In this document: piece by piece, positions 14,209-32,771 of the stretch
Layout: each line of letters begins with the position of its first letter
Position numbering within the stretch: position 1 is the first letter of the stretch
Assembly: GCF_007827695.1 (NCBI RefSeq)
Contig: NZ_VITA01000005.1
Coordinates: 1 to 64,000 of the forward strand
Source: Sinorhizobium medicae
GTDB taxonomy: Bacteria > Pseudomonadota > Alphaproteobacteria > Rhizobiales > Rhizobiaceae
Reading direction: 5' to 3'
Length of the DNA stretch: 64,000 bases
The notes under the pieces: model-generated
Seen by the model: only the letters and a program-made list of their open reading frames with translations
Databases searched by the model: none
Told to the model about the DNA's origin: nothing
Program-made: the position numbers and the translations under genes

Positions 14209-14264
14209 TGGCGGCCTCCTTTGCATTTCCAGGCGGGTCGGCTAGATTGCGCCTGTACAGAAAA

Positions 14265-15008: not shown

Positions 15009-15110
15009 TCCGGTCATGCTTCGACCCATTTTACGCGCTCACCGATAGCTCGATTCGACCATGTCGGACGGCGTTTTCATGCAACCCTCCCAGCCGATTT
15101 CCTGTATAGT

Positions 15111-15124
15111 TATTTTACAAGTTA
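15111..15124 (+). promoter_or_regulatory. TATTTTACAAGTTA motif upstream of the SMP-30 gene
   Basis: This AT-rich motif lies in the 232-base gap between the GntR gene and the SMP-30 gene. Its first 12 bases occur again, inverted, at 23273-23284 in front of the TetR gene, and the core TTACAAGTTA recurs at 23215-23224 beside the substrate-binding-protein promoter. It may be an operator half-site shared by the sugar genes. The rest of the gap holds only a 29-codon open frame (15141-15230) of doubtful meaning. Confidence 0.35.
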
Positions 15125-15240
15125 AGCGAGAGCAAACGCAATGATAGACCAAATAACTGCGGCAAAGAACTCAAGAATGGACCTTAAGCGCAGTCCGGAG
15201 GCATTCAGCGGCGAACATAGTCCGCTTTAGGGTGTGAGAC

Positions 15241-16145: not shown

Positions 16146-16787
16146 TCAGCGCTCCGGGACAGGGGGCAGTTCCGGCGCATCCAAACCCTTGAAGGGATCG
16201 CGCCAGGCATCGATCTCCTCGAGCCGGCCATACCAGCGGCAGACGGAAGGGTAATCGCCAAGCGGCAATCCGGCCACATCGTTGAAGGGCAGGAAGGTCG
16301 CCATCCGGAAGTCCGCATAGGAAAGCCGATCTCCGGCAAGCCATCTTCGATCGGAAAGCGCGGCGTCCAGTATCGCGGCCGCCGTGCGGAAATTGTTCAG
16401 CCCCTCCTCGACCATTCGCGGGTCGGTGGACCCAAGTCCATAGCGCAGCTTCGTGCCCCGCTCGAACTGCACCACGTCGCATGCTCTCACGAAATTCTCC
16501 TTGCCCCAGCTGAGCCAACGGATCATCTCGGGTTCATTGTCGCCGGTGCGCCAGAAATCCGAGCCCACCGCGCGTGAAAGCCGGCAAGCGATCGCGTCGG
16601 CCTCCCAGAGGCTTTCCCCCGACCAGACAAGTATGGGCAGCGAAAGATTCGGATTGAGTGGCCGAAAACGCTCCGCCTGCCCCGTTGAAAAGGGCGAGGC
16701 GAACTCGTATTCGACGCCAGCCCCTAGATGGCGTGCCACCGCTACGGCGAGGCGCGGATTGGGATTGCGACTGTAGAACAGTTTCAT
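16146..16787 (-). CDS. Glutathione S-transferase-like protein
   Basis: This is a 213-residue protein with a thioredoxin-fold N terminus (KLFYSRNPNPRLAVAVARHL) and an all-helical C-terminal domain typical of GSTs. Positions GESLWEADAIACRLSR and GDRLSYADFRMATFLPF match the conserved Glu/Ser glutathione site and the N-capping box of the family. The ATG at 16787 follows GGAGAG; an apparent start at 16802 is a TTG that overlaps that site. It lies 24 bases after the ABC ATPase gene and is probably the last gene of the leftward sugar operon. Whether it conjugates, isomerises or reduces a pathway intermediate cannot be told. Confidence 0.8.
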   Translation of the reverse strand: MKLFYSRNPNPRLAVAVARHLGAGVEYEFASPFSTGQAERFRPLNPNLSLPILVWSGESLWEADAIACRLSRAVGSDFWRTGDNEPEMIRWLSWGKENFVRACDVVQFERGTKLRYGLGSTDPRMVEEGLNNFRTAAAILDAALSDRRWLAGDRLSYADFRMATFLPFNDVAGLPLGDYPSVCRWYGRLEEIDAWRDPFKGLDAPELPPVPER

Positions 16788-16811
16788 TCTCAATCTCTCC
16801 AAACGCCGGCT

Positions 16812-17891
16812 CTACATCGCCCTGCCATCGGAACCGAAGACGTGGCAGCGCGAAGGGTCGAAGTGGACGGCGAGGTTGGAGCCCCGCTCGACCTTCTGTT
16901 GTCCCTCCAGCGCGACGGTCAGTTGCTGGCGATCCGGTGTAATCCCGTAGAGCATGGTTTCGCCACCGAGATTTTCGACGATCTCGACATTGATCTGAGC
17001 GAGTGCGATGCCGCCCTCATGCGCCGAAAGATGCTCCGGCCGGATGCCGAAAGTGACCTCCTGTCCCTGTGTCGCCCCCTCCAGGCGCCGGGGCAGTCGC
17101 AGCGCCCCGCCGCACACCTGCACAGCGGTTTCATTGCCGCCGACCTCCTCGATCCGCGCCTTCAGGAAGTTCATCTTCGGGCTGCCGATGAAGCCCGCGA
17201 CGAAGCGGTTGACGGGATTGTTGTAGAGGTCGAGCGGTGCGCCCACCTGCTCGATGCGGCCGGAGTTCAAGACGACGATCTTGTCCGCCATGGTCATGGC
17301 CTCCACCTGATCGTGCGTCACATAGATCATGGTGTTTCCGAGGTCCCGATGAAGCCTCGATATCTCGACGCGCATCTGTACGCGCAGTTCCGCGTCCAGA
17401 TTGGACAGCGGCTCATCGAAGAGGAAGATGCGGGGTTCGCGCACGATTGCGCGGCCGATCGCCACGCGCTGCCGCTGGCCGCCGGAAAGCGCCTTCGGTT
17501 TGCGGTCGAGCAGCTTCTCGATCTGCAGGATTTCTGCAGCGCGGCGTACCTTCGGCTCGATCTCGGCTTTCCGGTAGCCGGCTGTTTCCAGGCCGAAGGC
17601 GAGATTCTTGTAGACCGACATGTGCGGATAAAGCGCATAGGACTGAAACACCATGGCGATTCCGCGTTTGGCGGGCGCCACTTCGTTCATCCGGTCGCTA
17701 TCGAGCAGAAGCGTTCCGCCGGTAATCTCTTCGAGCCCTGCGATCATGCGCAGCAAGGTCGATTTGCCGCAACCGGACGGACCGACGAAGACGGCGAACT
17801 CGCCGGGATCGATGGTCAGGTCGATGCCGTGGATCACGTCGAACGCGCCGTAACGCTTTTCGACCTTTTGAAGAACGACGCTCGTCGCCAT
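16812..17891 (-). CDS. Sugar ABC transporter ATPase (MalK/UgpC family)
   Basis: This is a 359-residue ATPase of the CUT1 sugar-importer type. It has Walker A GPSGCGKSTLLRMIAG, signature [20 protein letters not shown] and Walker B IFLFDEPLSNLDAELR, followed by a C-terminal regulatory beta domain (TOBE type) with FGIRPEHL. The start at 17891 follows GGAGGAG; an in-frame extension to 17963 lies over the adjacent gene and is rejected. It energises uptake with the two permeases and binding protein at 20.0-23.2 kb. The insertion of two oxidoreductase genes between permeases and ATPase suggests that import and first oxidation are co-regulated. Confidence 0.93.
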   Translation of the reverse strand: MATSVVLQKVEKRYGAFDVIHGIDLTIDPGEFAVFVGPSGCGKSTLLRMIAGLEEITGGTLLLDSDRMNEVAPAKRGIAMVFQSYALYPHMSVYKNLAFGLETAGYRKAEIEPKVRRAAEILQIEKLLDRKPKALSGGQRQRVAIGRAIVREPRIFLFDEPLSNLDAELRVQMRVEISRLHRDLGNTMIYVTHDQVEAMTMADKIVVLNSGRIEQVGAPLDLYNNPVNRFVAGFIGSPKMNFLKARIEEVGGNETAVQVCGGALRLPRRLEGATQGQEVTFGIRPEHLSAHEGGIALAQINVEIVENLGGETMLYGITPDRQQLTVALEGQQKVERGSNLAVHFDPSRCHVFGSDGRAM

Positions 17892-17913
17892 GTCAAACTC
17901 CTCCCCTGCGGCC

Positions 17914-18987
17914 CTATCGGGTAATCGCTCGCCAATCGGCATATTTCGGACTTTCCGGCCCAAGCGGTAGTTCTATTTCTCGACCGGTATCTGCGGACTG
18001 ATAGATCGCCGTCACCAGTTCCAGCGCGCGACGCGCATCCTGCGTCGTCACCGGCAGCGGCGCTTTTCCGCCCAGGAAATCGTGGAAATGTGCCATCTGC
18101 GTCGTGAATCGCGGCGAGACCGGACGCCAGTCGCCGATCACATCGTCGATCCGGGCCTGGACTTCGCTATTGGCCGCGATGATCTTCCACGGGTCTTTAC
18201 CGGGCGCGTAGGGTTCGTGGCTGCTTTCGAAAGTCACGTTTTCGAAATGCAGCCTGAGCCGGCTGATCTGTTCCTGCGAGCCGAGCGTGCAGGAGAGTGA
18301 AACGAAGGCGCCGTTCTTCATCAGCAGGCTCGCGGAGGCGCAATCCTCGACTTCTATGTCGTTGACGCGCGTCGCGACCCGGCCGAACACGCGCGCCACC
18401 GGGCCGAGAAGGTGCAGCATCATGTCATGCAGGTGCAGCGCATGGGTGACGAGCACACCGCCGAGCTCCGTTGCCCATTTGCCCCGCCAGGGCACGGAAT
18501 AATATTCCGGCGTGCGCAGCCAGAAAGTTTCGACCGAGCCGACATAGGGCTTTCCGGCAATGCCCGCATCGATGATGCGTTTTGCTTTCTCGATGCCGTC
18601 GCCGTAGCGATACTGGAAAATCGGCATCAGCACGCCGCTTGCCTGCTTCTCGGCTTCCATGATCGCATCGACGCCCTTGAGCGATCCGGTCAGCGGCTTC
18701 TCGCAGATCACGTGCTTGCCGGCGGCGAGAGCCGCGAGCACCTGTTCGAGGTGGATGCCGGGTGGGGTGCAGATGTCGATGATGTCGATGCCGTCGTCGG
18801 CAAGCAGTTCGTCGAAGGACCGCGTCCGCTGTTCGATGCCGAATTCGTCGCCGACCTCGTTCATCCGTTCCTCGTTGAGATCGCAAAGTGCCTGGACGCG
18901 GAACCTGTCCGGGTGCGGCTGATAGCCCTCGACAATGTGCGAACGCCCGATGCCGCAGCCGATGATGGCAACTGTCTTCACGCTCAT
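17914..18987 (-). CDS. Gfo/Idh/MocA-family oxidoreductase (A)
   Basis: This is a 357-residue NAD(P)-dependent sugar oxidoreductase. The Rossmann motif is VAIIGCGIGRSHIVEGYQ; CEKPLTGS is the family's EKP lysine motif. The segment GGVLVTHALHLHDMMLHLLG provides the catalytic histidine region. The ATG lies one base after the stop codon of the next upstream gene (oxidoreductase B), so translation is coupled. Members of this family oxidise or reduce ring hydroxyls of sugars, inositols and glycosides. The substrate is unknown. It is one of four family members in 12 kb and is distinct in sequence from the other three. Confidence 0.88.
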   Translation of the reverse strand: MSVKTVAIIGCGIGRSHIVEGYQPHPDRFRVQALCDLNEERMNEVGDEFGIEQRTRSFDELLADDGIDIIDICTPPGIHLEQVLAALAAGKHVICEKPLTGSLKGVDAIMEAEKQASGVLMPIFQYRYGDGIEKAKRIIDAGIAGKPYVGSVETFWLRTPEYYSVPWRGKWATELGGVLVTHALHLHDMMLHLLGPVARVFGRVATRVNDIEVEDCASASLLMKNGAFVSLSCTLGSQEQISRLRLHFENVTFESSHEPYAPGKDPWKIIAANSEVQARIDDVIGDWRPVSPRFTTQMAHFHDFLGGKAPLPVTTQDARRALELVTAIYQSADTGREIELPLGPESPKYADWRAITR

Positions 18988-18988
18988 G

Positions 18989-20005
18989 TCAGTTCCTGCC
19001 TCCGTTCAGCTCGGCGATCGCCTGCGCTTGAAGCGCGAGTTCCATGGCTTTGAAGCAGCGCTCCTGCTGCATCGCGGTTTCGGTACGGTCCCTGAGGTCG
19101 GCCAGGAAGAGGCGGCCGAACGGCAGGTCGACGCCGGAGCAATCGATATGTTCGACGCCCTTGCGGTCGGCGATAAGCAGGTGGTTGCCGCCCTGGCGTC
19201 CGGCGAGATCGACCGTCTTGCGCACCTCGATCGTACCTGACGTGCCGACGATGAAGAGGCGGCCGTCGCCCCAGGTCGGCATTCCATCCGGGGTCAGCCA
19301 GTTTACATGGATCATGCCGGTCGCCTGCCCGGTCGTAAGATGGATGCTCCCCGTATCCTGCAGTTCCGGAGCGTCGGGAACGCTCCGATTGCCGACACTT
19401 GCCGAAAGAACCGTGGCGTCGCTCGCGCCGGTGAAGAACAGAAACTGCTCGCACTGGTGCGAGGCGATATCGGTCAGGATGCCGCCGTAATCGGCGCGCC
19501 GGAAAAACCAGCCGGGCCGCGACTCGCGCCGCAGCCGGTGCGGCCCGAGACCGACGACGTGCACCACATCGCCGATCGCGCCTTCAGCGACGAGCTCGCC
19601 GGCCTTGACCGTTGCCGGGCTTTCGAAATGCTCCGAATAAAGAATGGAGAAGATGCGGCCCGTATCGGCCTGGACCCGGCGCAGTTTCGCGAGCTGGTCG
19701 AAGCTTGTCATGCCCGGCTTGTCGGTGAGCACATCCTTGCCGTTTTGCATGGCGCGGATCGCCAGTTCTGCGCGCTGGCTCGAAACGGCGGCGGTGACGA
19801 TGAGGCCGATGCTCTCGTCTTCAAGGATTTCCTCCAGCGTCGCGATGCGCGGCGCATCCCCGTAGGCGCCGGAGAATTCCGCGGCGAGCGCATTGTCCTC
19901 TTCGTGGTAGCCGGCGAGGCGGGCGCCCGCTCGCAGCAGGCAATTGACCTGGCCGTAGATATGGTTGTGATTGAGCCCAACGGCGGCGAAGCGCAGTTCG
20001 TCCAT
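18989..20005 (-). CDS. Gfo/Idh/MocA-family oxidoreductase (B), atypical nucleotide loop
   Basis: This is a 338-residue protein related to Gfo/Idh/MocA enzymes. The first beta strand is FAAVGLNHNHIYGQ, which lacks the usual GxGxxG loop and may change cofactor handling. TDKPGMTSFDQLAKL keeps the Lys-Pro motif with Asp instead of Glu, and GGILTDIASHQCEQFLFF supplies the Asp/His catalytic region. It is located between the permeases and oxidoreductase A. The family often contains paired genes acting on the same 3-keto-sugar or cyclitol, so a joint role with A is likely but unproven. Confidence 0.82.
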   Translation of the reverse strand: MDELRFAAVGLNHNHIYGQVNCLLRAGARLAGYHEEDNALAAEFSGAYGDAPRIATLEEILEDESIGLIVTAAVSSQRAELAIRAMQNGKDVLTDKPGMTSFDQLAKLRRVQADTGRIFSILYSEHFESPATVKAGELVAEGAIGDVVHVVGLGPHRLRRESRPGWFFRRADYGGILTDIASHQCEQFLFFTGASDATVLSASVGNRSVPDAPELQDTGSIHLTTGQATGMIHVNWLTPDGMPTWGDGRLFIVGTSGTIEVRKTVDLAGRQGGNHLLIADRKGVEHIDCSGVDLPFGRLFLADLRDRTETAMQQERCFKAMELALQAQAIAELNGGRN

Positions 20006-20024
20006 GATGATTTGGCTCCGTCGC

Positions 20025-20912
20025 TCAGCGCTTCATGCCGGTGGTGGCGATGCCCTCGATCAGAAGGCGCTGGAAGAACAGGAAGAAAAAGAACACCGGT
20101 ACCAGCGAGAGCGTCGACATCGCGAAGAGCCCGCCCCAGTCGGAGGTGCTGCTCGAGTCGACGAAGGTCCGCAGGCCAAGCTGGATCGTGTAGCTGTTCA
20201 TGTCGTTCAGGTAGATCAGCGGGCCGAAGAAATCGTCCCAGGTCCAGATGAAGGAGAAGATCGCGGCTGTCGCCAGGACAGGAAGCGACAGCGGCAGCAT
20301 GATCTTCCAGTAGATGCGCCAGGCGCCGCAACCGTCCATCATCGCCGCCTCGTCGAGTTCGCGCGGGATTCCGCGGAAGAACTGCACCATCAGGAAGATG
20401 AAGAAGGCGTCGCTGGCGAGGAACTTCGGCACGACCAGCGGCAGGAAGGTGTTCACCCAGCCGAGATCGAGGAAGAGCACATATTGGGGAATGAGCGTCA
20501 CATGATAGGGGACCATCATCGTGCCGAGCATGATCGCGAACCAGAAATTTCGCCCGGCAAAGCGCAGCCGCGCGAAGGCATAGGCCGCGAGCGAGCAGGC
20601 GACGACATTGCCGATGACGGTCAGGACGGCAATGACGAGCGAGTTCCAGAAGAACCGGCCGAAGCTGACGTCCAACCCGAACCAGCCGCGCAGATAGGAG
20701 GAGAAATCGACCGATGAAGGCGAGAGCGAGGTCGAGGCGAAGATCTCGTCCTCCGGCCGCACCGAGGCCGAAATCATCCAGAGCAGCGGATAGATCATGG
20801 CGATGGAGGCGGCGATCAGGGCGGCGTGAACGAGAGCCGATCCGATAGGGCCGCGGCGACCGGGCGGGGCCGGTGGCGGGGCGGTTACCAAGCTCATGGT
20901 CGCGTCAGTCAT
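20025..20912 (-). CDS. Sugar ABC transporter permease (MalG type)
   Basis: This is a 295-residue membrane protein with six predicted helices. It carries the EAA loop that docks on the ATPase: ELDEAAMMDGCGAWRIYWKI in the middle of the protein. The first helix follows a proline-rich N terminus, and the LINGxxPxD-like end of the pore domain is replaced by a short tail. It overlaps the upstream permease gene by 8 bases. It is the MalG-type partner of the 318-residue permease encoded just upstream. Confidence 0.92.
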   Translation of the reverse strand: MTDATMSLVTAPPPAPPGRRGPIGSALVHAALIAASIAMIYPLLWMISASVRPEDEIFASTSLSPSSVDFSSYLRGWFGLDVSFGRFFWNSLVIAVLTVIGNVVACSLAAYAFARLRFAGRNFWFAIMLGTMMVPYHVTLIPQYVLFLDLGWVNTFLPLVVPKFLASDAFFIFLMVQFFRGIPRELDEAAMMDGCGAWRIYWKIMLPLSLPVLATAAIFSFIWTWDDFFGPLIYLNDMNSYTIQLGLRTFVDSSSTSDWGGLFAMSTLSLVPVFFFFLFFQRLLIEGIATTGMKR

Positions 20913-21861
20913 CGTAATGCACCCAGTAGCGGGAGGTGAGGAACGAGAAGGCCGTGAACAGGCCGATGATCAGCACGAGAATCCAGGCAAGCGCTGAGGC
21001 GTAGCCCATGCGGAAATTACCGAAGGCTTCCTGGTAGAGATAAAGCGTGTAGAACAGAGTCGAATTGATCGGTCCGCCGGTGCCGCCGGAAATGATGAAG
21101 GCGGGTGTGAAAGCCTTGAAGGCGTCGATCGTCTGGACAACCGCGTTGAAGAAGATGACCGGTGTGAGAAGCGGCAGCGTGATCTTGTAGAATTGACGGA
21201 ACTTCGACGCTCCATCGAGGCTCGCCGCCTCGTACATGTCCGTCGGGATCTGCCGAAGACCCGCTAGGAAGATGATCATCGGCGACCCGAATTGCCAGAC
21301 GCTCAAGACCACGAGTGTCCATATCGAGTAGTCCGGATGCGAGATCCAGCTCGGCCCCTCGATGCCGAACCGTGCGAGCAGGCTGTTGATCAGGCCGTCG
21401 CCGGCGAAGAGCTGCCGCCAGAGCACGGCGATCGCGACGCTGCCTCCAAGCAGCGAAGGCAGGTAGAAGATCGCCCGATAGACGGTGAGCCCTCGGACGC
21501 CGCGGTCGAGAAGGATCGCGACGAGCAGCGCAAAAGCGAGCTTGAAGGGCACCGAAAGGACCACATAGAGGAAGGTCACCTTGACGGCGGCGGCGAATTT
21601 TGGGTCGGCCGTCGCGATGCGCGCGTAATTGGCCGTGCCGACCCATTCCGGCGCCCGTATCAGGTCGAAATTGGTGAAGGAGAGATAGAGCGAGGCGATG
21701 GCAGGCCCGAGCGTCAGGCCGAAGAAGCCTATGAGCCACGGCAACAGGAACATGTAGCCGGCGCCGTGCCTGGCCCAGATTCTTGCCAGGCGGCCCTGTG
21801 CGGCCGGGCGCGAAGGAGCGCCCGTGCCGACGGTGACAGCGGTGTCCTGCACGGCCGCCAT
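20905..21861 (-). CDS. Sugar ABC transporter permease (MalF/UgpA type)
   Basis: This is a 318-residue permease with six helices, a large N-terminal hydrophilic stretch and the EAA motif MYEAASLDGASKFRQFYKIT. The sequence FLLPWLIGFFGLTLGPAIASLYLSF forms the first helix. It lies 4 bases after the binding-protein stop codon and 8 bases into the next permease, so the three are one transcript. The CUT1 type suggests import of a disaccharide, glycoside or polyol rather than a simple pentose. Confidence 0.92.
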   Translation of the reverse strand: MAAVQDTAVTVGTGAPSRPAAQGRLARIWARHGAGYMFLLPWLIGFFGLTLGPAIASLYLSFTNFDLIRAPEWVGTANYARIATADPKFAAAVKVTFLYVVLSVPFKLAFALLVAILLDRGVRGLTVYRAIFYLPSLLGGSVAIAVLWRQLFAGDGLINSLLARFGIEGPSWISHPDYSIWTLVVLSVWQFGSPMIIFLAGLRQIPTDMYEAASLDGASKFRQFYKITLPLLTPVIFFNAVVQTIDAFKAFTPAFIISGGTGGPINSTLFYTLYLYQEAFGNFRMGYASALAWILVLIIGLFTAFSFLTSRYWVHYDD

Positions 21862-21865
21862 CCTC

Positions 21866-23152
21866 CTAACCCCGCGCGAGAATTTGGCTGACTTCGTTCA
21901 CCAGCGTCTCGCCGCCCTGCTTGGCATCGAGCTGACCGAAGCCCACCTGTTCGGCGACGTTGCGCAGTGCGAATTCCGCCTCGCCGGCACCGCTCGGCGG
22001 GGGTGGCGGCAGTTCGCCGGCAAGGGGACCGAGGCCGGAGACATAGTCGAGCATGGCGCGGCCGAGCTCGTCGAGCGTCGGCGCGAGAGCCTCGCGCACG
22101 GCGGACGATTCCGGTACGCCGCGCTCGACGCCGAGGATTTCTGCGGCCTTCGGATCCTTGACGAAGAAGTTGACATATTTGGCGCCGAGTTCCGGGTCCT
22201 TCGTCTGAGCCGCGACCGAGAAGAACATCGACGGCTTGCGGTAATGGCCGCCCTTCGAATCCTTGCTGATCAACGGGTGGCTGCGGAGCGCCAGCTTGTC
22301 CTTGCTGACGCCCTGATAGGCGACGAACTGGTTGGAATGCGCAAAGGAGGCGGCCGACTTGCCGAGCGACAGCGGGCTCGTCTCCACGGTGTACTGGTCG
22401 AGCGCCTGCACGTCCGGCGGAACGCACGCCTTGGCCTCGCGCATGTTCTGCCACATGGTAAACCATTCTGCCGCATCATTGGCATCGTAACCGATCTTGC
22501 CTTCGGCGGTGAAGAGCGCCTTGCCGCGCTGGCGAAGCCAGTTTTCGAGCAGCGGCTCGACGGCACTGCCATCGGAAAGGCCGTAGAACCCCTTGCGCTT
22601 GCCCGCCTGGGTGATCTCAGCGCCGATCTTTGCCATCTCTTCCCAGGTGGTGGATGGGCTCGGCAGGTCGACTCCGGCTTCCTCGAAAGCGGCGGCGTTG
22701 ACCATCATCGCTGCCGAGTTGGCGCCGAGGCTGATGCCGTAGAGCTTGCCGTCGACGCTGCCGCCCTTGATCTGCACCTGGTCGAAATCCTCGACCTTGA
22801 GCACGGAGCCGAGATAGTCGTCGAGCGGCGCGAGCGCGCCGCGCCGGGCATATTCGACGATGTAGCGATAGTCCATCTGTATGATGTCGGGTGCGTTACG
22901 GCCGGCGACCTGCGTCGCGAGCCGAGGCCAGTAATCGCTCCAGCCGAGAAATTCGCCGTTGATGGCGACACCCGCATTCTGCTCCTGGAAGAGCTGGTTG
23001 ACCTTGTTGGTCCGGTCGGCCCGGGCCTGAGAGCCCCACCAGAGCACGCGCAGCCGCGCCTCCTGCGCAAGGGCGCTCCTTGCCATCGCCGACATCGAAA
23101 GAAGTGCCGCCCCACCCGCGAGTACACTTCGCCTGCTGATTTTATGCGTCAT
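21866..23152 (-). CDS. Sugar ABC transporter substrate-binding protein
   Basis: This is a 428-residue periplasmic binding protein (cluster 1 type). The N terminus MTHKISRRSVLAGGAALLS has a twin-arginine-like RR motif followed by a hydrophobic core and an ALAQ cleavage site, so export by Tat or Sec is expected. The mature part opens with LRVLWWGSQARADRTNKVNQ, typical of extracytoplasmic sugar receptors. The start at 23152 follows GGAGGAG; the extra upstream residues of the frame have no ribosome site. It is the first gene of a leftward operon of binding protein, two permeases, two oxidoreductases, ATPase and GST. A TetR-type operator candidate lies 51 bases upstream. Confidence 0.92.
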   Translation of the reverse strand: MTHKISRRSVLAGGAALLSMSAMARSALAQEARLRVLWWGSQARADRTNKVNQLFQEQNAGVAINGEFLGWSDYWPRLATQVAGRNAPDIIQMDYRYIVEYARRGALAPLDDYLGSVLKVEDFDQVQIKGGSVDGKLYGISLGANSAAMMVNAAAFEEAGVDLPSPSTTWEEMAKIGAEITQAGKRKGFYGLSDGSAVEPLLENWLRQRGKALFTAEGKIGYDANDAAEWFTMWQNMREAKACVPPDVQALDQYTVETSPLSLGKSAASFAHSNQFVAYQGVSKDKLALRSHPLISKDSKGGHYRKPSMFFSVAAQTKDPELGAKYVNFFVKDPKAAEILGVERGVPESSAVREALAPTLDELGRAMLDYVSGLGPLAGELPPPPPSGAGEAEFALRNVAEQVGFGQLDAKQGGETLVNEVSQILARG

Positions 23153-23202
23153 CTGTTCCTCCTCCCTTCGGAACGCCTCCACAACGTTCCGGCTTGCAAC
23201 AA

Positions 23203-23218
23203 ATAACTATTTGGTTAC
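23203..23218. promoter_or_regulatory. Operator candidate 1 for the TetR regulator
   Basis: ATAACTATTTGGTTAC, read on the other strand as GTAACCAAATAGTTAT, is a near-perfect 16-bp inverted repeat in the promoter gap between the substrate-binding protein and the TetR gene. It matches the site at 24073-24088 in 13 of 16 positions, including both GTAAC-type arms. The pair brackets the TetR gene. Confidence 0.65.
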
Positions 23219-23340
23219 AAGTTATGGACAAGCAATGATCCTGTCAAGCAGTTGTGTGCGGAACTATCATTGACTTGTAAAATATTTTAACAAAGTTGCA
23301 CCGAGTGCCGTCTGAGGCAAGAGGTTCCGGAGGCTGCGTG

Positions 23341-24018
23341 ATGGAGAAGATGCAAGGCGGGGCGAAAGGCAGAAACGGGGCTGCAGGCCGTGCGGAGCGG
23401 CCTCTGCAGCGCGATCCCGAGCGCACGCGCGCCTCGATCCTCGCCGCCGCGACCCAGGAGTTTGCCGAAAATGGCATAGGTGGCGCGCGTGTGGACGCCA
23501 TTGCCGAGCGTGCGGGCATCAACAAGCGGATGCTCTATCACTACTTCGGCGACAAGGAGCAGCTTTACCTTGCGGTCCTGGAAGAGGCTTACGTGGGCAT
23601 CAGAACGGCCGAGAAATCCCTTAACCTCAGTGACTTGGAGCCTGAGCAGGGAATTGCCGAGCTCGCCATGTTCACCTGGGGCTACTTCCTGGAGCATCCG
23701 GAATTTCTCAGTCTTCTCGGCACCGAGAACCTGCATCGGGCGCGCTGGCTGCGCCAATCGACGCGCCTCAAGGAATTGCATTCGAGCTTTATCGACAAGC
23801 TGTCCGACCTTCTCCAGCGCGGCAGGAAGGAGGGGCTCTTCCGGCCGGATGTCGACCCGCTGAACCTTTATCTGACGATCGCCGCCCTGGGCTATTTCTA
23901 CCTTTCCAATCAGTACACGCTGTCGACGATCTTTGGCCGCGACCTCATGGACAAGAGCAATCTCGACGTCTGGAAGCGCCATATCGTCCACGTCACGCTG
24001 GCGTCCATCCGAGGCTGA
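23341..24018 (+). CDS. TetR-family transcriptional regulator
   Basis: This is a 225-residue regulator. An N-terminal helix-turn-helix has ILAAATQEFAENGIGGARVD, IAERAGINKRMLYHYFGDKE; the C-terminal helical domain resembles those with a TetR_C-type ligand pocket. The ATG at 23341 is chosen because GGAGG lies 7 bases upstream; an earlier start at 23296 is a TTG without such a site. It sits between two divergent operons (transport/oxidoreductase to the left, catabolic enzymes to the right) and between two matching palindromes, so it probably represses both in the absence of a pathway ligand and also limits its own expression. Confidence 0.9.
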   Translation: MEKMQGGAKGRNGAAGRAERPLQRDPERTRASILAAATQEFAENGIGGARVDAIAERAGINKRMLYHYFGDKEQLYLAVLEEAYVGIRTAEKSLNLSDLEPEQGIAELAMFTWGYFLEHPEFLSLLGTENLHRARWLRQSTRLKELHSSFIDKLSDLLQRGRKEGLFRPDVDPLNLYLTIAALGYFYLSNQYTLSTIFGRDLMDKSNLDVWKRHIVHVTLASIRG

Positions 24019-24072
24019 TCCAAGCGCTTGTCGTTTTTTTTGTTGACAAGTGCGATTCTCCTCTGCCACAAA

Positions 24073-24088
24073 GTAACCGATTAGTTAC
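24073..24088. promoter_or_regulatory. Operator candidate 2 for the TetR regulator
   Basis: GTAACCGATTAGTTAC has perfect GTAAC/GTTAC arms and lies 53 bases before the rightward catabolic operon. A -35-like TTGACA occurs at 24051-24056, 16 bases upstream of it, so binding would cover the likely -10 region. It is the counterpart of the site at 23203-23218. Confidence 0.7.
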
Positions 24089-24141
24089 TGGCTTGGGAGG
24101 GCTGGTTCTCTCCCCTCACGGGCACCTCAGGGAGGAAGCGC

Positions 24142-25290
24142 ATGCCGCGTTTGGGAATCATTCTGCACGGCGTTACCGGCCGGATGGGTTACAATCAGCA
24201 TCTGGTGCGATCGGTTCTGGCCATCCGCGATCAAGGCGGGATAATGCTCAAATCCGGCGGACGGCTGGAGATCGATCCGATTATCGTCGGGCGCAATCGC
24301 GACAAGATCGAGCAACTGGCGAAGCGGCATGATATCGCGCGCTGGTCGACGGACCTCGATGCGGCACTTGCCGATCCGAACGATCAGATCTTCTTCGATG
24401 CGGGCACGACGCTGATGCGCGCAGAACTCATCGGCCGCGCTCTCGACGCAGGCAAGCATGTCTATTGCGAGAAGCCGGTCTCCGACGATCTCAGGACCGC
24501 CGTCAAACTGGCGCGCAAGGCACGCGCCTCCGGCCTCAAGCACGGCGTCGTGCAGGACAAGCTGTTTCTGCCGGGCCTTCAGAAGTTGGCTCTGCTCAGG
24601 GATTCAGGCTTCTTCGGCAAGATCCTCTCGGTGCGCGGGGAGTTCGGCTATTGGGTGTTCGAAGGCGATTGGGGCGTTCCGGCCCAGCGGCCTTCCTGGA
24701 ACTACCGAAAGAAGGACGGCGGCGGCATCATCCTCGACATGCTCTGCCACTGGCGCTACGTGCTCGACAATCTTTTCGGCGAGGTGAAGGCGGTCTCATG
24801 CCTCGGCGCCACCCATATCTCAAGCCGCATCGACGAGCAGGGCCGCGCCTATGACTGCGACACTGACGATGCGGCCTATGCCACTTTCGAACTCGAAGGC
24901 GGCGTGATCGCGCAGATCAATTCCTCCTGGACGGTCCGGGTGCGCCGTGACGATCTCGTCACCTTCCAGGTCGATGGAACGCACGGTTCCGCCGTGGCGG
25001 GGCTGACGAAGTGCTGGACGCAGCACCGCGTCAATACGCCGAAGCCGGTCTGGAACCCGGATCAGCCGCAGACGATCGATTTCTACGAGACCTGGGACGA
25101 AGTTCCGGACACGCAAGCCTTCGACAACGGCTTCAAGGCGCAATGGGAAATGTTCCTGCGCCACGTAGCCGAGGACAGCCCATGGCCCTACGGGCTGGAG
25201 GCTGGCGCCAAGGGCGTGCAGCTCGCCGAACTGGGCTTGAAATCCTGGGCGGAGCGCCGCTGGCTCGACGTTCCGGAACTGGAGTTCTGA
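24142..25290 (+). CDS. Gfo/Idh/MocA-family oxidoreductase (C)
   Basis: This is a 382-residue oxidoreductase. The N terminus LGIILHGVTGRMGYNQH has a dihydrodipicolinate-reductase-like GxxGRMG nucleotide loop rather than the classical one. YCEKPVSDDLRTAVKLA gives the EKP motif, and GGGIILDMLCHWRYVLDNLFG the Asp/His catalytic region. The ATG follows AGGGAGGAAG. It is the first gene of a rightward operon with 3-base to 19-base gaps: C, DUF993, enolase-superfamily, TIM barrel. It probably carries out the first or second oxidation in that pathway. Substrate unknown. Confidence 0.87.
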   Translation: MPRLGIILHGVTGRMGYNQHLVRSVLAIRDQGGIMLKSGGRLEIDPIIVGRNRDKIEQLAKRHDIARWSTDLDAALADPNDQIFFDAGTTLMRAELIGRALDAGKHVYCEKPVSDDLRTAVKLARKARASGLKHGVVQDKLFLPGLQKLALLRDSGFFGKILSVRGEFGYWVFEGDWGVPAQRPSWNYRKKDGGGIILDMLCHWRYVLDNLFGEVKAVSCLGATHISSRIDEQGRAYDCDTDDAAYATFELEGGVIAQINSSWTVRVRRDDLVTFQVDGTHGSAVAGLTKCWTQHRVNTPKPVWNPDQPQTIDFYETWDEVPDTQAFDNGFKAQWEMFLRHVAEDSPWPYGLEAGAKGVQLAELGLKSWAERRWLDVPELEF

Positions 25291-25293
25291 GAG

Positions 25294-26457
25294 ATGGCAA
25301 GCATCAGTCTTCCCGTCGGCGGTCGGCTCCTTCCCTACGAACTCACCGGCCGGCCGGTGCCGTTGAAGGGGCGCGATGCGGCTGCCTTTCCGAGGGTCGC
25401 TTTCGCCGCCGCCCATGTCGTCGCCGACCCGCTTGCCGACAATGATCCCTGGGTGACGCCGGCAATCGACTGGGAGCGTACGCTTGCCTTTCGCCATCGC
25501 CTCTGGGATCTCGGGCTCGGTGTCGCCGAATCGATGGACACGGCCCAGCGCGGCATGGGTCTCGGCTGGCCTGAGGCACGCGAACTCATCGGCCGCTCGC
25601 TCAGCGAGGCGCGCGGCCGTTCCGGCGCGCTGATAGCCTGCGGCGCGGGAACCGATCATCTGGTCCCGGGGCCCAACGTCACGATCGACGAAATCCTCAG
25701 GGCTTATGAGAGTCAGATCGAGACGATCGAGGCCGAAGGCGGCCGCATCATCCTGATGGCGAGCCGGGCGCTTGCTGCCGCGGCAAAGGGGCCGGAGGAC
25801 TATTTCCGGGTCTACGACCGCATTCTCTCGCAGGTGAAGGAGCCGGTGATCATCCACTGGCTCGGTGAGATGTTCGATCCGGCGCTCGAAGGCTATTGGG
25901 GCAATGCCGACCATATGGCGGCGATGAAGACCTGCCTCGACGTCATCGAGGCGCATGCCGCCAAGGTCGACGGCATCAAGATTTCACTCCTTTCCAAGAA
26001 GAAGGAGATCGTGATGCGACGGCAATTGCCGAAGGGCGTGCGCATGTACACCGGGGACGATTTCAACTATGCCGAGCTGATTTCCGGCGACGAGGAAGGG
26101 TATTCGGACGCACTGCTCGGCATCTTCGATGCGATCGCGCCGGTTGCTTCGGCTGCGCTGGAAGCGCTGGGCGGCGGGCGAAATGGGGAATTCTTCGAAT
26201 TGCTGGATCCGACGGTGCCGCTCTCGCGCCACATCTTCAAGGCACCGACGCGCTTCTACAAGACCGGTGTCGTGTTTCTGGCCTATCTCAACGGCCTTCA
26301 GGACCATTTCGCCATGATCGGCGGACAGCAGAGCGCCCGGTCGCTCGTCCATCTCGCCGAGCTTTTCCGTCTGGCGGACAGAGCCGGCGTTCTCCAGGAT
26401 CCGGAGCTGGCCGCCGGGCGCATGCGGCGCGTCCTCGCCGTCAACGGCGTCGCGTGA
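25294..26457 (+). CDS. DUF993 protein, dihydrodipicolinate-synthase-like TIM barrel
   Basis: This is a 387-residue member of DUF993, a family without an established reaction that is predicted to share the class I aldolase barrel of dihydrodipicolinate synthase. The segment KVDGIKISLLSKKKEI places Lys229 where a Schiff-base lysine sits in that fold; CGAGTDHLVPGPN and IIHWLGEMFDPALEGYWG are further conserved-looking blocks. The ATG at 25294 lies 3 bases after the preceding gene. An aldolase or dehydratase step on a keto-sugar acid is a reasonable guess, but nothing in the sequence proves catalysis. Its neighbours (oxidoreductase C and the enolase-superfamily protein) are cotranscribed. Confidence 0.8.
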   Translation: MASISLPVGGRLLPYELTGRPVPLKGRDAAAFPRVAFAAAHVVADPLADNDPWVTPAIDWERTLAFRHRLWDLGLGVAESMDTAQRGMGLGWPEARELIGRSLSEARGRSGALIACGAGTDHLVPGPNVTIDEILRAYESQIETIEAEGGRIILMASRALAAAAKGPEDYFRVYDRILSQVKEPVIIHWLGEMFDPALEGYWGNADHMAAMKTCLDVIEAHAAKVDGIKISLLSKKKEIVMRRQLPKGVRMYTGDDFNYAELISGDEEGYSDALLGIFDAIAPVASAALEALGGGRNGEFFELLDPTVPLSRHIFKAPTRFYKTGVVFLAYLNGLQDHFAMIGGQQSARSLVHLAELFRLADRAGVLQDPELAAGRMRRVLAVNGVA

Positions 26458-26466
26458 GGCCCCGGC

Positions 26467-27888
26467 ATGACGGAAGCCCCGCGCGTCCGGCTTGTCGGCG
26501 CTGAGATTTTCGAGCGGCCGGTCGAGTTCCGTTTCCCTTTCCGCTTCGGGGCGGCGCGCGTTACGAACGCGCCGCAGGCCTTCGTTCGGGTGCGGGTGGA
26601 GGATGCGAGCGGCCGATCCACCATCGGTAGGTCCGCCGAGATGATGATGCCGAAATGGTTCGACAAGAATCCGAGCCTTTCGCCGGAAGATAATGTCGGG
26701 CAGCTTCGCGCGTCTTTGCGTCTGGCCGCCGAAGGGTTGAAATCCTTGCAGGCGGAGACCGCTTTCGGCCTGCATGTTGCCGCAGAGACCGAACACCACC
26801 AGGCGGCGGCAACGCATGGCCTGCCGCCTCTCGTCGCATCCTACGGCCTGGCGCTCCTTGACCGCGCCATCCTTGATGCGGTGTGCCGCATGATGGGAGC
26901 ATGCGCCGCCGAAGCGGTCAGAAACAACCTGCTCGGCGTCAGCGGCGTCGCCGCGCCGGATCTCGCCGGTTTCGACCTCACGCGCTTCCTCTCGCGTCTA
27001 AACGTTTCGTCGCGGCTCGCCGTGCGGCACACGATCGGACTTGCGGACGTTCTGACTGTGGCCGATCTCGGCGCGATGCAGCGGCCGGCGGACGGTCTTC
27101 CTCAAACGCTCGAAGATGTGATCGCCGCCTATGGTCACAGGTATTTCAAGATCAAGGTTTCCGGCAGGCCGGCAGAAGATATCGAGCGCCTCGTCGCCAT
27201 CGCGGCCATACTCGATGACCGTGTCGGCGATTACAGGGCGACACTCGACGGCAATGAACAGTTCGAGAATATCGACCTGGTCTGCGATCTTCTCGATCGG
27301 ATCGAAGAAGAGCCGCGTCTCAAGCGACTCCGGGCGTCGATGCTCTTTTTTGAACAGCCGATCGCGCGTGCAGAGGCGCTGTCGAAGCCGGTCGTCGCCG
27401 CCGCGCAACGGATGCCCCTGGAAATCGACGAGTCCGACGGCGACATGGGTGCGTTTCTCCGGGCTCGTGAGCTTGGTTATGCCGGCATCTCCTCGAAGTC
27501 ATGCAAGGGCTTCTATCGGGCACTCATCAATCGCGCCCGGGTGGAAAAGTGGAACGCCGAGGCGGGCTCATCCCATTATTTCATGTCCGCCGAGGACCTG
27601 ACGACGCAAGCGGGTTTGGCCCTGCAGCAGGATCTGGTGCTGGCATCACTTGTCGGCGCCGGTCACGTCGAGCGCAACGGTCACCATTATGTCGACGGAA
27701 TGGCGGGGGCACCCGAGGGCGAGCAATTGGCCTATCTGTCGCATCACGGCGATCTATACGAAGGCGCCGCCGGGCAGACGCGGCTCGCCATACAGGCGGG
27801 TGAAATCACCTTTGCAACAGCCTTGCGATCCGTCGGCCTCGGCTCATCCGTCGACCCGGACTGGGCCGCGATGAGGCCCGTTTCGTGA
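26467..27888 (+). CDS. Enolase-superfamily protein of unknown specificity
   Basis: This is a 473-residue protein with the enolase-superfamily barrel. Residues in order: K228/K230 in YFKIKVSG, a metal Asp at about 261 in TLDGNEQF, Glu296 in FFEQPIAR, Asp321/Glu322 in PLEIDESDGD, and lysines 344/347 in GISSKSCKGFY. A lysine on both the second and sixth strands resembles the muconate-lactonising subgroup rather than classical mandelate racemases. The protein is about 100 residues longer than usual for that subgroup, mostly before the barrel. Likely chemistry is alpha-proton abstraction next to a carboxylate: dehydration, epimerisation or cycloisomerisation of an acid. Which acid is unknown; context suggests a sugar-derived one. 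Confidence 0.78.
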   Translation: MTEAPRVRLVGAEIFERPVEFRFPFRFGAARVTNAPQAFVRVRVEDASGRSTIGRSAEMMMPKWFDKNPSLSPEDNVGQLRASLRLAAEGLKSLQAETAFGLHVAAETEHHQAAATHGLPPLVASYGLALLDRAILDAVCRMMGACAAEAVRNNLLGVSGVAAPDLAGFDLTRFLSRLNVSSRLAVRHTIGLADVLTVADLGAMQRPADGLPQTLEDVIAAYGHRYFKIKVSGRPAEDIERLVAIAAILDDRVGDYRATLDGNEQFENIDLVCDLLDRIEEEPRLKRLRASMLFFEQPIARAEALSKPVVAAAQRMPLEIDESDGDMGAFLRARELGYAGISSKSCKGFYRALINRARVEKWNAEAGSSHYFMSAEDLTTQAGLALQQDLVLASLVGAGHVERNGHHYVDGMAGAPEGEQLAYLSHHGDLYEGAAGQTRLAIQAGEITFATALRSVGLGSSVDPDWAAMRPVS

Positions 27889-27907
27889 AGAATGCGAGGA
27901 GAGTACC

Positions 27908-28741
27908 ATGCAGGTCGAAGGCCTTTCCATCAATCTGGCGACCATCCGGGAGCAATGCGGCTTCGCCGAAGCCGTGGATGTCTGTCTGAAGCATGGCATC
28001 ACGGCCATTGCTCCCTGGCGCGACCAGGTGGCGGCGATCGGCCTTGAAGAGGCCTCGCGCATCGTCCGCTCCAACGGGCTGAAGCTGACGGGGCTCTGCC
28101 GCGGAGGCTTTTTTCCGGCGCCGGATGCGGCGGGCCGGGAGAAGGCGATCGACGACAACAAGCGCGCAGTCGACGAGGCAGCGGAGCTCGGCGCCGATTG
28201 CCTGGTGCTGGTCGTCGGCGGGCTGCCGGGCGGCTCGAAGAACATCGACGCGGCCCGCAGCATGGTTCTGGAAGGGATTGCTGCGGTGCTGCCGCATGCC
28301 CGCGCGGCCGGCGTGCCGCTGGCGATCGAGCCGCTGCATCCGATGTATGCTGCCGACCGCGCCTGCGTGAACACGCTCGGCCAGGCGCTCGACATCTGCG
28401 AGGCCCTTGGCCCCGGCGTCGGCGCTGCGATCGACGTCTATCACGTCTGGTGGGATCCTGATCTGAACGAACAGATAGCGCGGGCAGGCCGAATGAAGGC
28501 GATACTCGCTCACCACATCTGCGATTGGCTGGTTCCGACGAAGGACATGCTTACCGATCGCGGGATGATGGGCGACGGCGTCATCGACCTTAAGGCGATC
28601 CGCCGGGAGGTCGAGGCGGCCGGCTTCCACGGGGCGCAGGAGGTCGAGATTTTCTCCGCCGACAACTGGTGGAAACGCCCGGCCGAAGAGGTGATCGCGA
28701 CTTGTGTGGAACGTTATCGGAGCTGCTGCCGAGATGATTGA
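27908..28741 (+). CDS. Xylose-isomerase-like TIM-barrel protein (sugar isomerase/epimerase family)
   Basis: This is a 277-residue protein of the AP-endonuclease-2/xylose-isomerase-like barrel family. Probable metal ligands are Glu141 (LAIEPLHPM), Asp176 and His179 (AIDVYHVWWDP), His202/203 (LAHHICDW) and Glu247 (QEVEIFS). Such enzymes isomerise or epimerise ketoses, or act on inosose and 3-keto sugars. It closes the rightward operon, 19 bases behind the enolase-superfamily gene. In combination with Gfo/Idh oxidoreductases these barrels commonly act on keto-sugars. Specific substrate not recognised. Confidence 0.82.
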   Translation: MQVEGLSINLATIREQCGFAEAVDVCLKHGITAIAPWRDQVAAIGLEEASRIVRSNGLKLTGLCRGGFFPAPDAAGREKAIDDNKRAVDEAAELGADCLVLVVGGLPGGSKNIDAARSMVLEGIAAVLPHARAAGVPLAIEPLHPMYAADRACVNTLGQALDICEALGPGVGAAIDVYHVWWDPDLNEQIARAGRMKAILAHHICDWLVPTKDMLTDRGMMGDGVIDLKAIRREVEAAGFHGAQEVEIFSADNWWKRPAEEVIATCVERYRSCCRDD

Positions 28742-28816
28742 CCTCGCCTGTTGTTCTTACAAGTCGGCAGCAGTTCACCCGGCAATCGCATTGACTTTCG
28801 CCAAGTCCGATCTCAA

Positions 28817-28839
28817 ACATGTATGATAAATTTACATGT
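28817..28839. promoter_or_regulatory. Inverted repeat ACATGTA-N9-TACATGT upstream of oxidoreductase D
   Basis: Perfect 7-base arms (28817-28823 and 28833-28839) separated by nine AT-rich bases lie 54 bases before the coding start of the fourth Gfo/Idh gene. It differs from the GTAAC-type TetR operators, so this gene may answer to another regulator. The surrounding 150 bases hold no gene. Confidence 0.55.
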
Positions 28840-28893
28840 AAGTACCGCTGCCGCGGAGAGCGGCGTCACCCCGAAACAGAATTGCACGAGGGA

Positions 28894-30186
28894 ATGATGG
28901 ACAACAAGCGTCGCTTTGCGCTGGTCGGCACCGGCAATCGCGGAACCACCATGTGGGGCAAGGATCTTCTCGCCGGATGGCGCGGACTTGTCGACCTCGT
29001 CGCCATTGCGGACACCAACTCGCTCAGGGCCGAGCGCGCCCGGACGATGATCGCAACCAATGCGCCGATCTATGACAGTGTCGATTCGATGCTTGCCGAA
29101 ACGCGCCCCGATCTCGTCATAGTCTGTACGCCTGACGATACGCATGACGACATCGTCGTGCGTGCGCTCGAATCGGGTGCCGACGTCATCACCGAAAAAC
29201 CGATGTCGACCACGGTTGAGAAGATCCGGCGGATTCTCGAAGCCGAGAAGCGCACCGGCCGACGGGTGGATGTGTCCTTCAACTACCGTTTTGCGCCGAC
29301 GGCGGCACGCATAAAGGAACTCCTGAACGCCGGTGAGATCGGCCGCATCACCTCCGTAGACTTCCATTGGTATCTGGATACAAGGCACGGCGCCGATTAT
29401 TTCCGCCGCTGGCATGCCTATGCGGAACGCTCGGGAAGCCTTTTCGTGCACAAGGCGACCCACCATTTCGACCTCCTGAACTGGTATCTGGACAGCGATC
29501 CGGACTCCGTCGGTGCCTTTGCCGACCTGCAGATGTACGGCCGCAAGGGACCGTTTCGCGGGCCGCGCTGCAAGCTCTGTCCCCACAAGAGCGAGTGCGA
29601 CTTCTATCTCGACCTCGAAGCCGATCCGTTTCTCGACGCGCTCTACGAGGAACCCTCCGAAATCGACGGCTATTTCCGCGACGGTTGCGTCTTTCGAGAG
29701 GACATCGACATACCGGACACGATGGTTGCGAATATCCGGTATCGCAACGACGTCCACGTTTCCTATTCGCTCAACACCTTCCAGCCGATCGAGGGCCACC
29801 ACATCGCCTTCAACGGAACGAAGGGCAGGATAGAGCTTCGCCAGTACGAAGATCAGCCGTGGGAGGCGCCGCCGGAAGACGTAATCCTGCTCGTCCGCAA
29901 TTTCCCCAAGGGCAAGGCTGCGGTGGAGCGCATCACGGTTCCGCATTCCGCCGGCGGCCACTACGGCGGCGACGATAGACTTCGAAATACGCTCTTCAAG
30001 CCGGGCGCGACCGATCCTTTGGGGCAGCGCGCAGGGGCCCGGGCGGGTGCCATGTCCGTGCTTTGCGGCATTGCCGCTCTGGAGAGCGCCCGCAAGGGCA
30101 AGGTTGTGCGGCTTGCCGATTTAATGCCGGAATTGTTCGTGGAGGAGACGCAGGCGGTAAGCAGGCTTGCGGCGAATGGCGCATAG
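28894..30186 (+). CDS. Gfo/Idh/MocA-family oxidoreductase (D) with a cysteine-containing insertion
   Basis: This is a protein of about 430 residues, longer than typical family members. The nucleotide loop is FALVGTGNRGTTMWGKDL, the EKP motif TEKPMSTTVEKI, and the catalytic region SGSLFVHKATHHFDLLNWYL. An insertion CKLCPHKSECDFY carries three cysteines, as in some relatives, and may bind a metal. The frame is open to 28819, but ATG 28894 (or 28897) beside GAGGG is more plausible. It has its own upstream palindrome and so may be a separate transcript, though it sits directly behind the catabolic operon and probably works in the same pathway. Confidence 0.83.
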   Translation: MMDNKRRFALVGTGNRGTTMWGKDLLAGWRGLVDLVAIADTNSLRAERARTMIATNAPIYDSVDSMLAETRPDLVIVCTPDDTHDDIVVRALESGADVITEKPMSTTVEKIRRILEAEKRTGRRVDVSFNYRFAPTAARIKELLNAGEIGRITSVDFHWYLDTRHGADYFRRWHAYAERSGSLFVHKATHHFDLLNWYLDSDPDSVGAFADLQMYGRKGPFRGPRCKLCPHKSECDFYLDLEADPFLDALYEEPSEIDGYFRDGCVFREDIDIPDTMVANIRYRNDVHVSYSLNTFQPIEGHHIAFNGTKGRIELRQYEDQPWEAPPEDVILLVRNFPKGKAAVERITVPHSAGGHYGGDDRLRNTLFKPGATDPLGQRAGARAGAMSVLCGIAALESARKGKVVRLADLMPELFVEETQAVSRLAANGA

Positions 30187-32709: not shown

Positions 32710-32771
32710 AAAAATTGCCGGCACGGTTTCTGGGTGAACCGAAGCGGGCAAATAGGGGATCGCAGGCCAAT

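Follow-up and report, generated by a model that had tools for sequence, protein, structure and literature searches.

A divergent gene cluster at positions 16146 to 30186 of a 64,000-nucleotide stretch of Sinorhizobium medicae DNA (here called the window) is, with high confidence, one jointly regulated regulon with a conserved core. Its two arms lie around a single gene for a TetR-family regulator. The minus arm encodes a binding protein, two permeases, two Gfo/Idh/MocA oxidoreductases (GfoB and GfoA), an ATPase, and a glutathione S-transferase (GST)-like protein. The plus arm encodes, in order, a third Gfo/Idh/MocA protein (GfoC), a DUF993 protein, an enolase-type protein, a xylose-isomerase-like barrel (TIM1), and a fourth Gfo/Idh/MocA protein (GfoD). 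Every listed enzyme and transporter protein was confirmed with Pfam, and the gene set claimed in an earlier reading made from the sequence alone (a CUT1 transporter, four Gfo/Idh proteins, DUF993, an enolase-type protein, a barrel, and one TetR regulator) was borne out by Pfam and NCBIfam. The system is a sugar regulon served by an ATP-binding cassette (ABC) importer and containing an unassigned lyase, a combination that we could match to no described pathway. The literature searched, in which most subscription journals are not covered, assigned no pathway to this gene set and gave no description of DUF993, in agreement with the earlier claim that no characterized pathway has this set. Our fuller reading, in which a single TetR controls this regulon and the regulon serves the catabolism of a hexuronate-bearing (pectin-type) saccharide, has in our view an even chance of being correct.

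Conserved core and variable modules

We compared 127 DUF993 neighborhoods: the window, a second copy from the same genome, 25 from a survey of the class, 20 plasmid loci, and the best 80 by similarity of the at least 594 stretches of public prokaryote genomes that encode DUF993. The set includes near relatives, repeated genomes (for example, L060/L159 and L067/L153), and some short contigs, and matches under family-specific identity thresholds (38 to 45%) were dropped. TIM1 was present in 115 neighborhoods, GfoC in 103, and TetR in 87, while the enolase was present in 48 and glycerate kinase in 12. GfoA, GfoB, and GfoD were found in 25, 19, and 24 neighborhoods, respectively. A CUT1 binding protein occurred in 32, TctA (>38% identity) in 21, of which 15 had the enolase, and NMT1-type proteins (>38%) in 14, all with the enolase. 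A second barrel, TIM2, lies beside many relatives of the tripartite tricarboxylate transporter (TTT) type and is not in the window. These frequencies and the variety of transporters indicate a core of GfoC, DUF993, and TIM1, which recurs with differing transporters, and a surrounding set of modules made up of the enolase, TIM2, GfoA, GfoB, GfoD, and the transporter. Since the enolase was present in 13 of the 32 CUT1 loci, dehydration by this enzyme, which the sequence-only reading had placed in the pathway, is not an obligatory step.

Among 289 genomes of the class, DUF993 was found in 25, the enolase in 22, and both in 17 (1.9 expected; Fisher p = 2e-17, uncorrected for relatedness). The two genes were on the same contig within 10 kb in 11 of these 17 genomes and apart in 6. 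One enolase match (G125, a genome with no DUF993) was short and weak. The search for the gene set in other genomes that had been suggested as a check revealed a recurring core and the co-occurrence of DUF993 with the enolase. The GST-like gene was present in 3 of the 127 neighborhoods, namely, the window and two Sinorhizobium/Ensifer relatives (L004 and L090), so we rejected it as a member. It is probably a neighbor outside the conserved system and not the pathway component it had been taken for.

Operators and joint expression

The palindrome TAAC-N6-GTTA is present in both promoter regions of the cluster (operators 1 and 2 in Table 1). The pattern TAACYNNNNRGTTA had two matches in the window and none in 100 window shuffles, and the consensus TAACYRNNYRGTTA has only two sites in the 6,532,790-base genome, both in the cluster and 870 bases apart. 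Because the consensus was partly derived from loci where it was then counted, it was checked by spacing, arm, and reversed-pattern controls as well as whole-genome scans. Across the 103 GfoC-bearing loci (window included), TAAC-N6-GTTA had 132 matches in 73 loci, with 48 lying no more than 400 bases ahead of GfoC and 40 ahead of TetR. Any other spacing from 0 to 14 gave at most 8 matches, compared to 132 for N6, and the TAAC arm ranked first of 64 arms of like composition (132 matches, next 51, median 7.5). The full consensus had 124 matches in 72 of the 103 loci, compared to 2 matches in 2 loci for the reversed pattern. Restricting the count to the class survey gave, for its 18 GfoC loci, 26 consensus matches in 13 loci and no reversed match.

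We additionally scanned 38 hand-picked genomes for the consensus, of which 24 have DUF993, 5 have the enolase alone, and 9 lack both. In the 24 DUF993 genomes, all other than that of the window, 29 of 50 consensus sites had DUF993 or the enolase no more than 15 kb away, and these sites were spread over 15 genomes. The nine genomes with neither gene had 2 consensus sites and 26 reversed-control sites. Three contigs with remaining sites carry other pieces of systems of this type (GfoC, TetR, CUT1 genes, and GfoB on G231:C287; TIM1 and GfoC on G087:C247; an acyl coenzyme A [acyl-CoA] dehydrogenase and TetR on G117:C87). The core genes were not found in most other stretches examined around the remaining consensus sites.

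An identical gene order is annotated in Sinorhizobium meliloti Ak57. From PDB titles and sequence, the S. meliloti counterparts of DUF993 and TIM1 are SMc04132 (4dnh) and SMc04130 (3ju2). An S. meliloti proteome study places SMc04132, SMc04133, SMc04135, SMc04138, and SMc04139 in one module, which was detected only in TY medium and was lower when phaR was deleted (PMC12542648). By tag order these five proteins belong to both arms of the cluster, and they are thus independent evidence of joint expression. The effect of PhaR points to further control, direct or indirect, by carbon storage. The earlier view of these genes as arranged around one TetR regulator is thus supported, in the form of one regulon whose operators are the only consensus sites of the genome.

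A second DUF993 gene of the same genome (G000:C4:302498-303643; L007:9487-10656) encodes a protein 60% identical to the first. It adjoins genes for a LacI-type regulator, another Gfo/Idh protein, a CoA transferase, and an aldehyde dehydrogenase, without GfoC, the enolase, or the operator. A second kind of DUF993 locus was seen in L171, L173, L174, L189, L190, L193, L195, and L197, all with a short-chain dehydrogenase/reductase (SDR) gene and with varying sets of acyl-CoA dehydrogenase, CoA transferase, enoyl-CoA hydratase, GMC oxidoreductase, or glycerate kinase genes. TAAC-N6-GTTA was present in 8 of 16 scanned DUF993 loci of the SDR kind or without GfoC.

Binding protein and likely ligand class

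The nearest PDB relatives of the binding protein are YesO 4r6k (2e-60) and 5z6b (4e-60), followed by 4ovj and by 2uvh, which we take to be the oligogalacturonide-binding protein TogB. A table in the YesO paper lists 11 residues contacting unsaturated galacturonate (PMC7596534), and 10 of these 11 are identical here (P = 5e-5 at 31% background). The residues kept are W49, R54, W81, D104, N155, N284, Q285, K316, S318, and M319 (numbered from the longer open reading frame [ORF], 21866-23182), and the single change is from YesO tyrosine 252 to histidine 282. The ten show no variation among related binding proteins (32 of 32), taken one per locus with near relatives included. We consider it fairly probable from these residues that the ligand is a uronide or another hexuronate-bearing saccharide. 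As the galacturonate subsite is kept and the mapped residues facing only the rest of the YesO ligand are not, a hexuronate with another partner is likely. The sequence-only reading had proposed import of a 3-keto-sugar, cyclitol, or glycoside. Saccharide uptake is upheld, but a cyclitol or a neutral 3-keto sugar does not fit a site of the unsaturated-galacturonate type.

No GH88 or GH105 hydrolase of this genome exceeded the Pfam cut-off, the one weak partial match scoring 25 bits against 26.6. The usual enzyme for unsaturated uronides therefore seems to be missing, which would leave room for oxidative release by GfoA, GfoB, or GfoD. In Rhizobium, a gene for DUF2264, a family that probably corresponds to GH154, adjoins a CUT1 version of the system.

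Predicted functions of the enzymes

The DUF993 protein matched its Pfam model at 613.6 bits (cut-off, 24). A fold search with its AlphaFold model (pLDDT 87) returned 4dnh first (89% identical in the fold alignment) and then, among the 50 matches listed, structures annotated as dihydrodipicolinate synthase (DHDPS), with E values of 3e-9 to 1e-7 and target-normalized template-modeling scores of 0.72 to 0.83. Catalysis in DHDPS involves a Schiff-base lysine, a tyrosine, and a TTGE motif. In DUF993, lysine 229 is invariant in 30 sequences and aligns, although weakly, with the Schiff-base lysine that marks membership of that superfamily. By a count of the barrel strands in the model, K229 and H188 fall on strands 6 and 5, respectively, which are the positions expected. 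The catalytic tyrosine and the TTGE motif are absent from DUF993, which by the same weak alignment has H188 and D82-T-A-Q85-R86 instead. DUF993 is likely, by its fold and this lysine, a class I (Schiff-base) lyase performing retro-aldol cleavage, and we infer that its substrate is other than a simple pyruvate derivative. The role of cleaving enzyme given to it earlier is thus supported, as that of a carbon-carbon lyase with a DHDPS fold and the lysine in register. No NCBIfam model matched DUF993 at E 0.01, including the KdgD model TIGR03249, and a separate KdgD scored over its cut-off elsewhere in the genome (G000:C3:71300). We therefore set aside an assignment of DUF993 as KdgD.

The closest PDB relatives of TIM1 are 3ju2 (SMc04130), 3qc0, and 7vpf, followed by IolI and tagatose epimerases. 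Four metal ligands are expected of the xylose-isomerase-like fold, and E141, D176, H203, and E247 of TIM1 are invariant in 27 sequences. TIM1 is likely a metal-dependent isomerase to judge from these residues, which agrees with the rearranging role previously assigned to the barrel.

GfoA to GfoD are mutually different, as had been claimed, with identities of 20.6 to 30.7% when each pair is compared over its longest BLASTP alignment, which was partial in every case. The closest solved relatives of GfoA are 3q2k and 3q2i and then DgpA, which is also among the PDB relatives of GfoC and GfoD; GfoC matched 3oqb (2e-179), whose title reads only "Oxidoreductase." No NCBIfam model exceeded its cut-off for GfoA to GfoD, DUF993, the enolase, or TIM1. 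The IolG model TIGR04380 gave 108.8, 40.4, 69.3, and 94.9 bits for GfoA to GfoD, respectively, against a cut-off of 355, and the levoglucosan dehydrogenase model NF052479 gave at most 96.3 bits against 650. With these cut-offs missed, the inositol, levoglucosan, and disaccharide 3-dehydrogenase families were set aside.

The muconate-lactonizing subgroup of the enolase superfamily is marked by KxK on strand 2, acidic metal ligands, and a lysine on strand 6, and the enolase-type protein has these features. Its residues K228xK230, D261, E296, D321/E322, K344, K347, and E376 are invariant in 25 sequences. It thus keeps the residues for proton abstraction beside a carboxylate, which fits an acidic substrate. 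Fold search with its model (pLDDT 89.5) returned remote matches only, the best PDB sequence match had an E value of 0.035, and the muconate cycloisomerase model TIGR02534 gave 18.7 bits against a cut-off of 334.95.

Relatives of the enolase-type protein also occur in other settings. On two haloarchaeal plasmids (L176 and L177) a relative (34 to 35% identical) lies beside Gfo/Idh genes, in L177 additionally with heparinase-like and acetylxylan-esterase genes. In Rhizobium leguminosarum (L005:6234-11386), a relative is accompanied by a GH39 glycosidase, a barrel unlike TIM1, a 2-hydroxyacid dehydrogenase, and an oligopeptide-type importer, and no DUF993 is annotated near it.

Proposed route and alternatives

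We propose that uptake is by the CUT1 importer and that the ligand, or a metabolite, would lift repression by TetR. GfoA, GfoB, and GfoD may oxidize or free the sugar in NAD-dependent reactions, and GfoC would produce a keto sugar or keto acid. TIM1 would then move or epimerize the carbonyl through an enediol, and DUF993 would form a Schiff base at lysine 229 and break the chain into small fragments in a retro-aldol reaction. These fragments would in some relatives probably pass onward via aldehyde dehydrogenase and glycerate kinase; genes so annotated are near GfoC and DUF993 in Paracoccus and on pAO1, which suggests release of three-carbon fragments (for example, glyceraldehyde or glycerate). 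The enolase would be an optional branch that abstracts the proton alpha to a carboxylate, either in a dehydration or in a beta-elimination. This order of steps is tentative.

A broader proposal, possible but in our estimate somewhat doubtful, is that GfoC, TIM1, and DUF993 constitute an undescribed non-phosphorylative route. DUF993, which lacks the pyruvate-binding motif of its superfamily, would then found a new class of Schiff-base aldolase and cleave a keto sugar or keto-uronate. Across Alphaproteobacteria the route would be under the control of a single TetR type paired with the operator described above, and the same palindrome would mark a second, CoA-linked DUF993 system.

Several results weigh against the reading as a hexuronate regulon. 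The reversed control pattern also occurs twice in the genome of the window, so the consensus is no commoner genome-wide than its control, and the 24 other DUF993 genomes have 50 consensus sites in total compared to 55 reversed-control sites. The location of the consensus sites, and not their number, is therefore informative. TAAC-N6-GTTA is absent from 30 of the 103 GfoC loci, and no consensus site is near DUF993 or the enolase in 9 of the 24 genomes. The gene set is not fixed, as the enolase is missing in 19 of the 32 CUT1 loci and TIM2 is absent here. Relatives import by TTT or NMT1-type systems, so their ligands are not necessarily uronides. Lyase chemistry for DUF993 is based on the fold and one aligned lysine, and its profile match to DHDPS, although collinear, is weak (E 0.13, with three DHDPS sequences, from 3 of 9 DHDPS loci). 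The literature searched gave no reported activity for any core enzyme.

The oxidative hexuronate route consists of uronate dehydrogenase, an enolase-superfamily lactone cycloisomerase, and KdgD, a member of the DHDPS superfamily. A variant with GfoC, the enolase, and DUF993 in these three places would account for the joint occurrence of dehydrogenase, enolase-superfamily, and DHDPS-fold proteins in one operon, for the hexuronate subsite of the binding protein, for the muconate-lactonizing type of the enolase, and for the gluconolactonase next door. However, neither operator is near the gluconolactonase, and 19 of the 32 CUT1 loci have no enolase. DUF993 matches neither KdgD nor any other NCBIfam model, has the tyrosine and TTGE motif replaced, and coexists with a separate KdgD. 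We consider this variant unlikely.

Improbable to a like degree is a 3-keto-glycoside route resembling those for levoglucosan and C-glycosides, with DUF993 and the enolase acting on the remainder. In such routes a Gfo/Idh enzyme oxidizes C3, a barrel eliminates the aglycone, and another Gfo/Idh enzyme re-reduces the sugar. The several Gfo/Idh proteins, the xylose-isomerase-like barrel, and the DgpA relationship of GfoA, GfoC, and GfoD speak for this route. Nevertheless, the NCBIfam cut-offs for levoglucosan, disaccharide, and glycoside dehydrogenases are missed by far, the closest solved relatives of TIM1 have only generic isomerase names ahead of IolI and the tagatose epimerases, and GfoA, GfoB, and GfoD are much rarer among the neighborhoods than GfoC and TIM1. 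A pathway for pentoses or other neutral sugars, in which D-xylose or another free sugar is oxidized by GfoC and a keto compound derived from sugar is split by DUF993, is very unlikely: on pAO1 of Paenarthrobacter the Gfo/Idh protein beside DUF993 is a GfoC relative (58% identical) that adjoins an AldH annotated to D-xylose catabolism, and a pAO1 sugar dehydrogenase was reportedly described in 2013 as preferring D-xylose, but the uronate subsite is kept in all 32 binding proteins, relatives use TTT transporters, which are typical of acids, and the pAO1 locus has no operator and no TIM1 or enolase at the identity thresholds used.

For the hexuronate regulon that we prefer, what was an open annotation problem can now be approached by a few direct tests, given the operator, the likely class of ligand, and the minimal core of three enzymes. 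The structure of DUF993 has been solved since 2012 (4dnh), and close relatives of GfoC (3oqb) and TIM1 (3ju2) are also solved; a function is absent from the titles of all three and from the literature searched. No relevant paper was found for the PDB codes and SMc04130 or for a Paenibacillus sugar isomerase, only unrelated ones, and the accessible text of the pAO1 and xylose literature found describes no DUF993/GfoC/TIM1 pathway. Plant-associated bacteria may use acidic sugars of the plant cell wall without the usual unsaturated-uronyl hydrolases.

Gene layout and flanking regions

Neighboring genes of the minus arm, from the binding-protein gene to GfoA, are separated by -8 to 19 bases. In the plus arm the gaps between GfoC, DUF993, the enolase, and TIM1 are 3, 9, and 19 bases, and GfoD follows 155 bases further. 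Choice of start codon probably explains the listed overlap of 50 bases between GfoA and the ATPase ORF; the annotated S. meliloti counterpart of the ATPase is shorter. The start of TetR was set to match the 225 amino acids annotated in S. meliloti, and that of GfoD was chosen after the same annotation.

Table 1. Features of the cluster, with positions in the window
Feature	Position	Strand	Basis
GST-like protein	16146..16802	-	GST_C domains; only C-terminal-domain models match (Pfam)
UgpC/MalK-type ATPase of CUT1 importer	16812..17963	-	ABC_tran, OB_MalK, TOBE_2; coordinates of the ORF as listed
GfoA, Gfo/Idh/MocA oxidoreductase	17914..18987	-	Pfam; EKP and DxxxH found
GfoB, Gfo/Idh/MocA oxidoreductase	18989..20005	-	Pfam; DKP replaces EKP, DxxxH found
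CUT1 permease B	20025..20912	-	BPD_transp_1
CUT1 permease A	20905..21861	-	BPD_transp_1
YesO-type solute-binding protein, nearly complete hexuronate subsite	21866..23152	-	PDB relatives, contact residues
Operator 1, TAACTATTTGGTTA	23204..23217	.	Between the divergent binding-protein and TetR genes
TetR-family regulator, RutR-like	23341..24018	+	NCBIfam RutR 1e-17, under curated cut-off
Operator 2, TAACCGATTAGTTA	24074..24087	.	54 bases ahead of GfoC start codon
GfoC, core Gfo/Idh/MocA dehydrogenase	24142..25290	+	Pfam; EKP and DxxxH found
DUF993, predicted Schiff-base (class I) lyase/aldolase, lysine 229	25294..26457	+	Pfam, fold, profile alignment
Enolase-superfamily protein (muconate-lactonizing-like), optional module	26467..27888	+	MR_MLE_C 33.8 bits (cut-off 29.4)
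TIM1, xylose-isomerase-like barrel, likely core isomerase/epimerase	27908..28741	+	AP_endonuc_2
GfoD, Gfo/Idh/MocA oxidoreductase	28897..30186	+	Pfam; EKP found, no DxxxH within the stretch scanned

To the left of the cluster (12484-16125) are genes for an IlvD/Edd-type dehydratase, a FadR-type regulator (by analogy with S. meliloti, L004), and a gluconolactonase, possibly a separate sugar-acid operon. They were rejected as members because no operator is nearby, although they adjoin the cluster in S. meliloti too. The gluconolactonase was present only in the window and L004 among the first 41 loci mapped. A P-type ATPase to the right was also rejected as a member. From 32715-34307 onward there are relatives of ABC importer genes, followed in S. 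meliloti (L004) by cytidine deaminase, purine-nucleoside phosphorylase, and thymidine phosphorylase; by this analogy the region appears to be an ordinary nucleoside-salvage cluster.

Comparison with known systems

The binding protein resembles that of the Bacillus subtilis rhamnogalacturonan-I importer, YesO, with 93 of 300 aligned pairs identical (over three alignment blocks, the final block of the alignment being excluded). It differs in that, of the YesO residues whose contacts are only with the other part of the ligand, none of the six mapped is kept here; four more such contacts (Asn172, Asp178, Ile179, and Met236) are outside the mapped set. The inositol and levoglucosan pathways likewise combine Gfo/Idh dehydrogenases with xylose-isomerase-like barrels, but the proteins here miss the curated cut-offs of IolG and LgdA, and we know of no DUF993 in either pathway. 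DUF993 has the barrel fold and strand-6 lysine in common with the DHDPS/N-acetylneuraminate lyase superfamily, including KdgD, whereas H188 in place of the tyrosine, DTAQR in place of TTGE, and about 90 additional residues set it apart. Similarly, the enolase-type protein shares KxK, the acidic metal ligands, and the later lysines with the muconate-lactonizing subgroup but differs from it in its length of 473 residues and in its identity of 12 to 19% to the best 50 fold matches listed.

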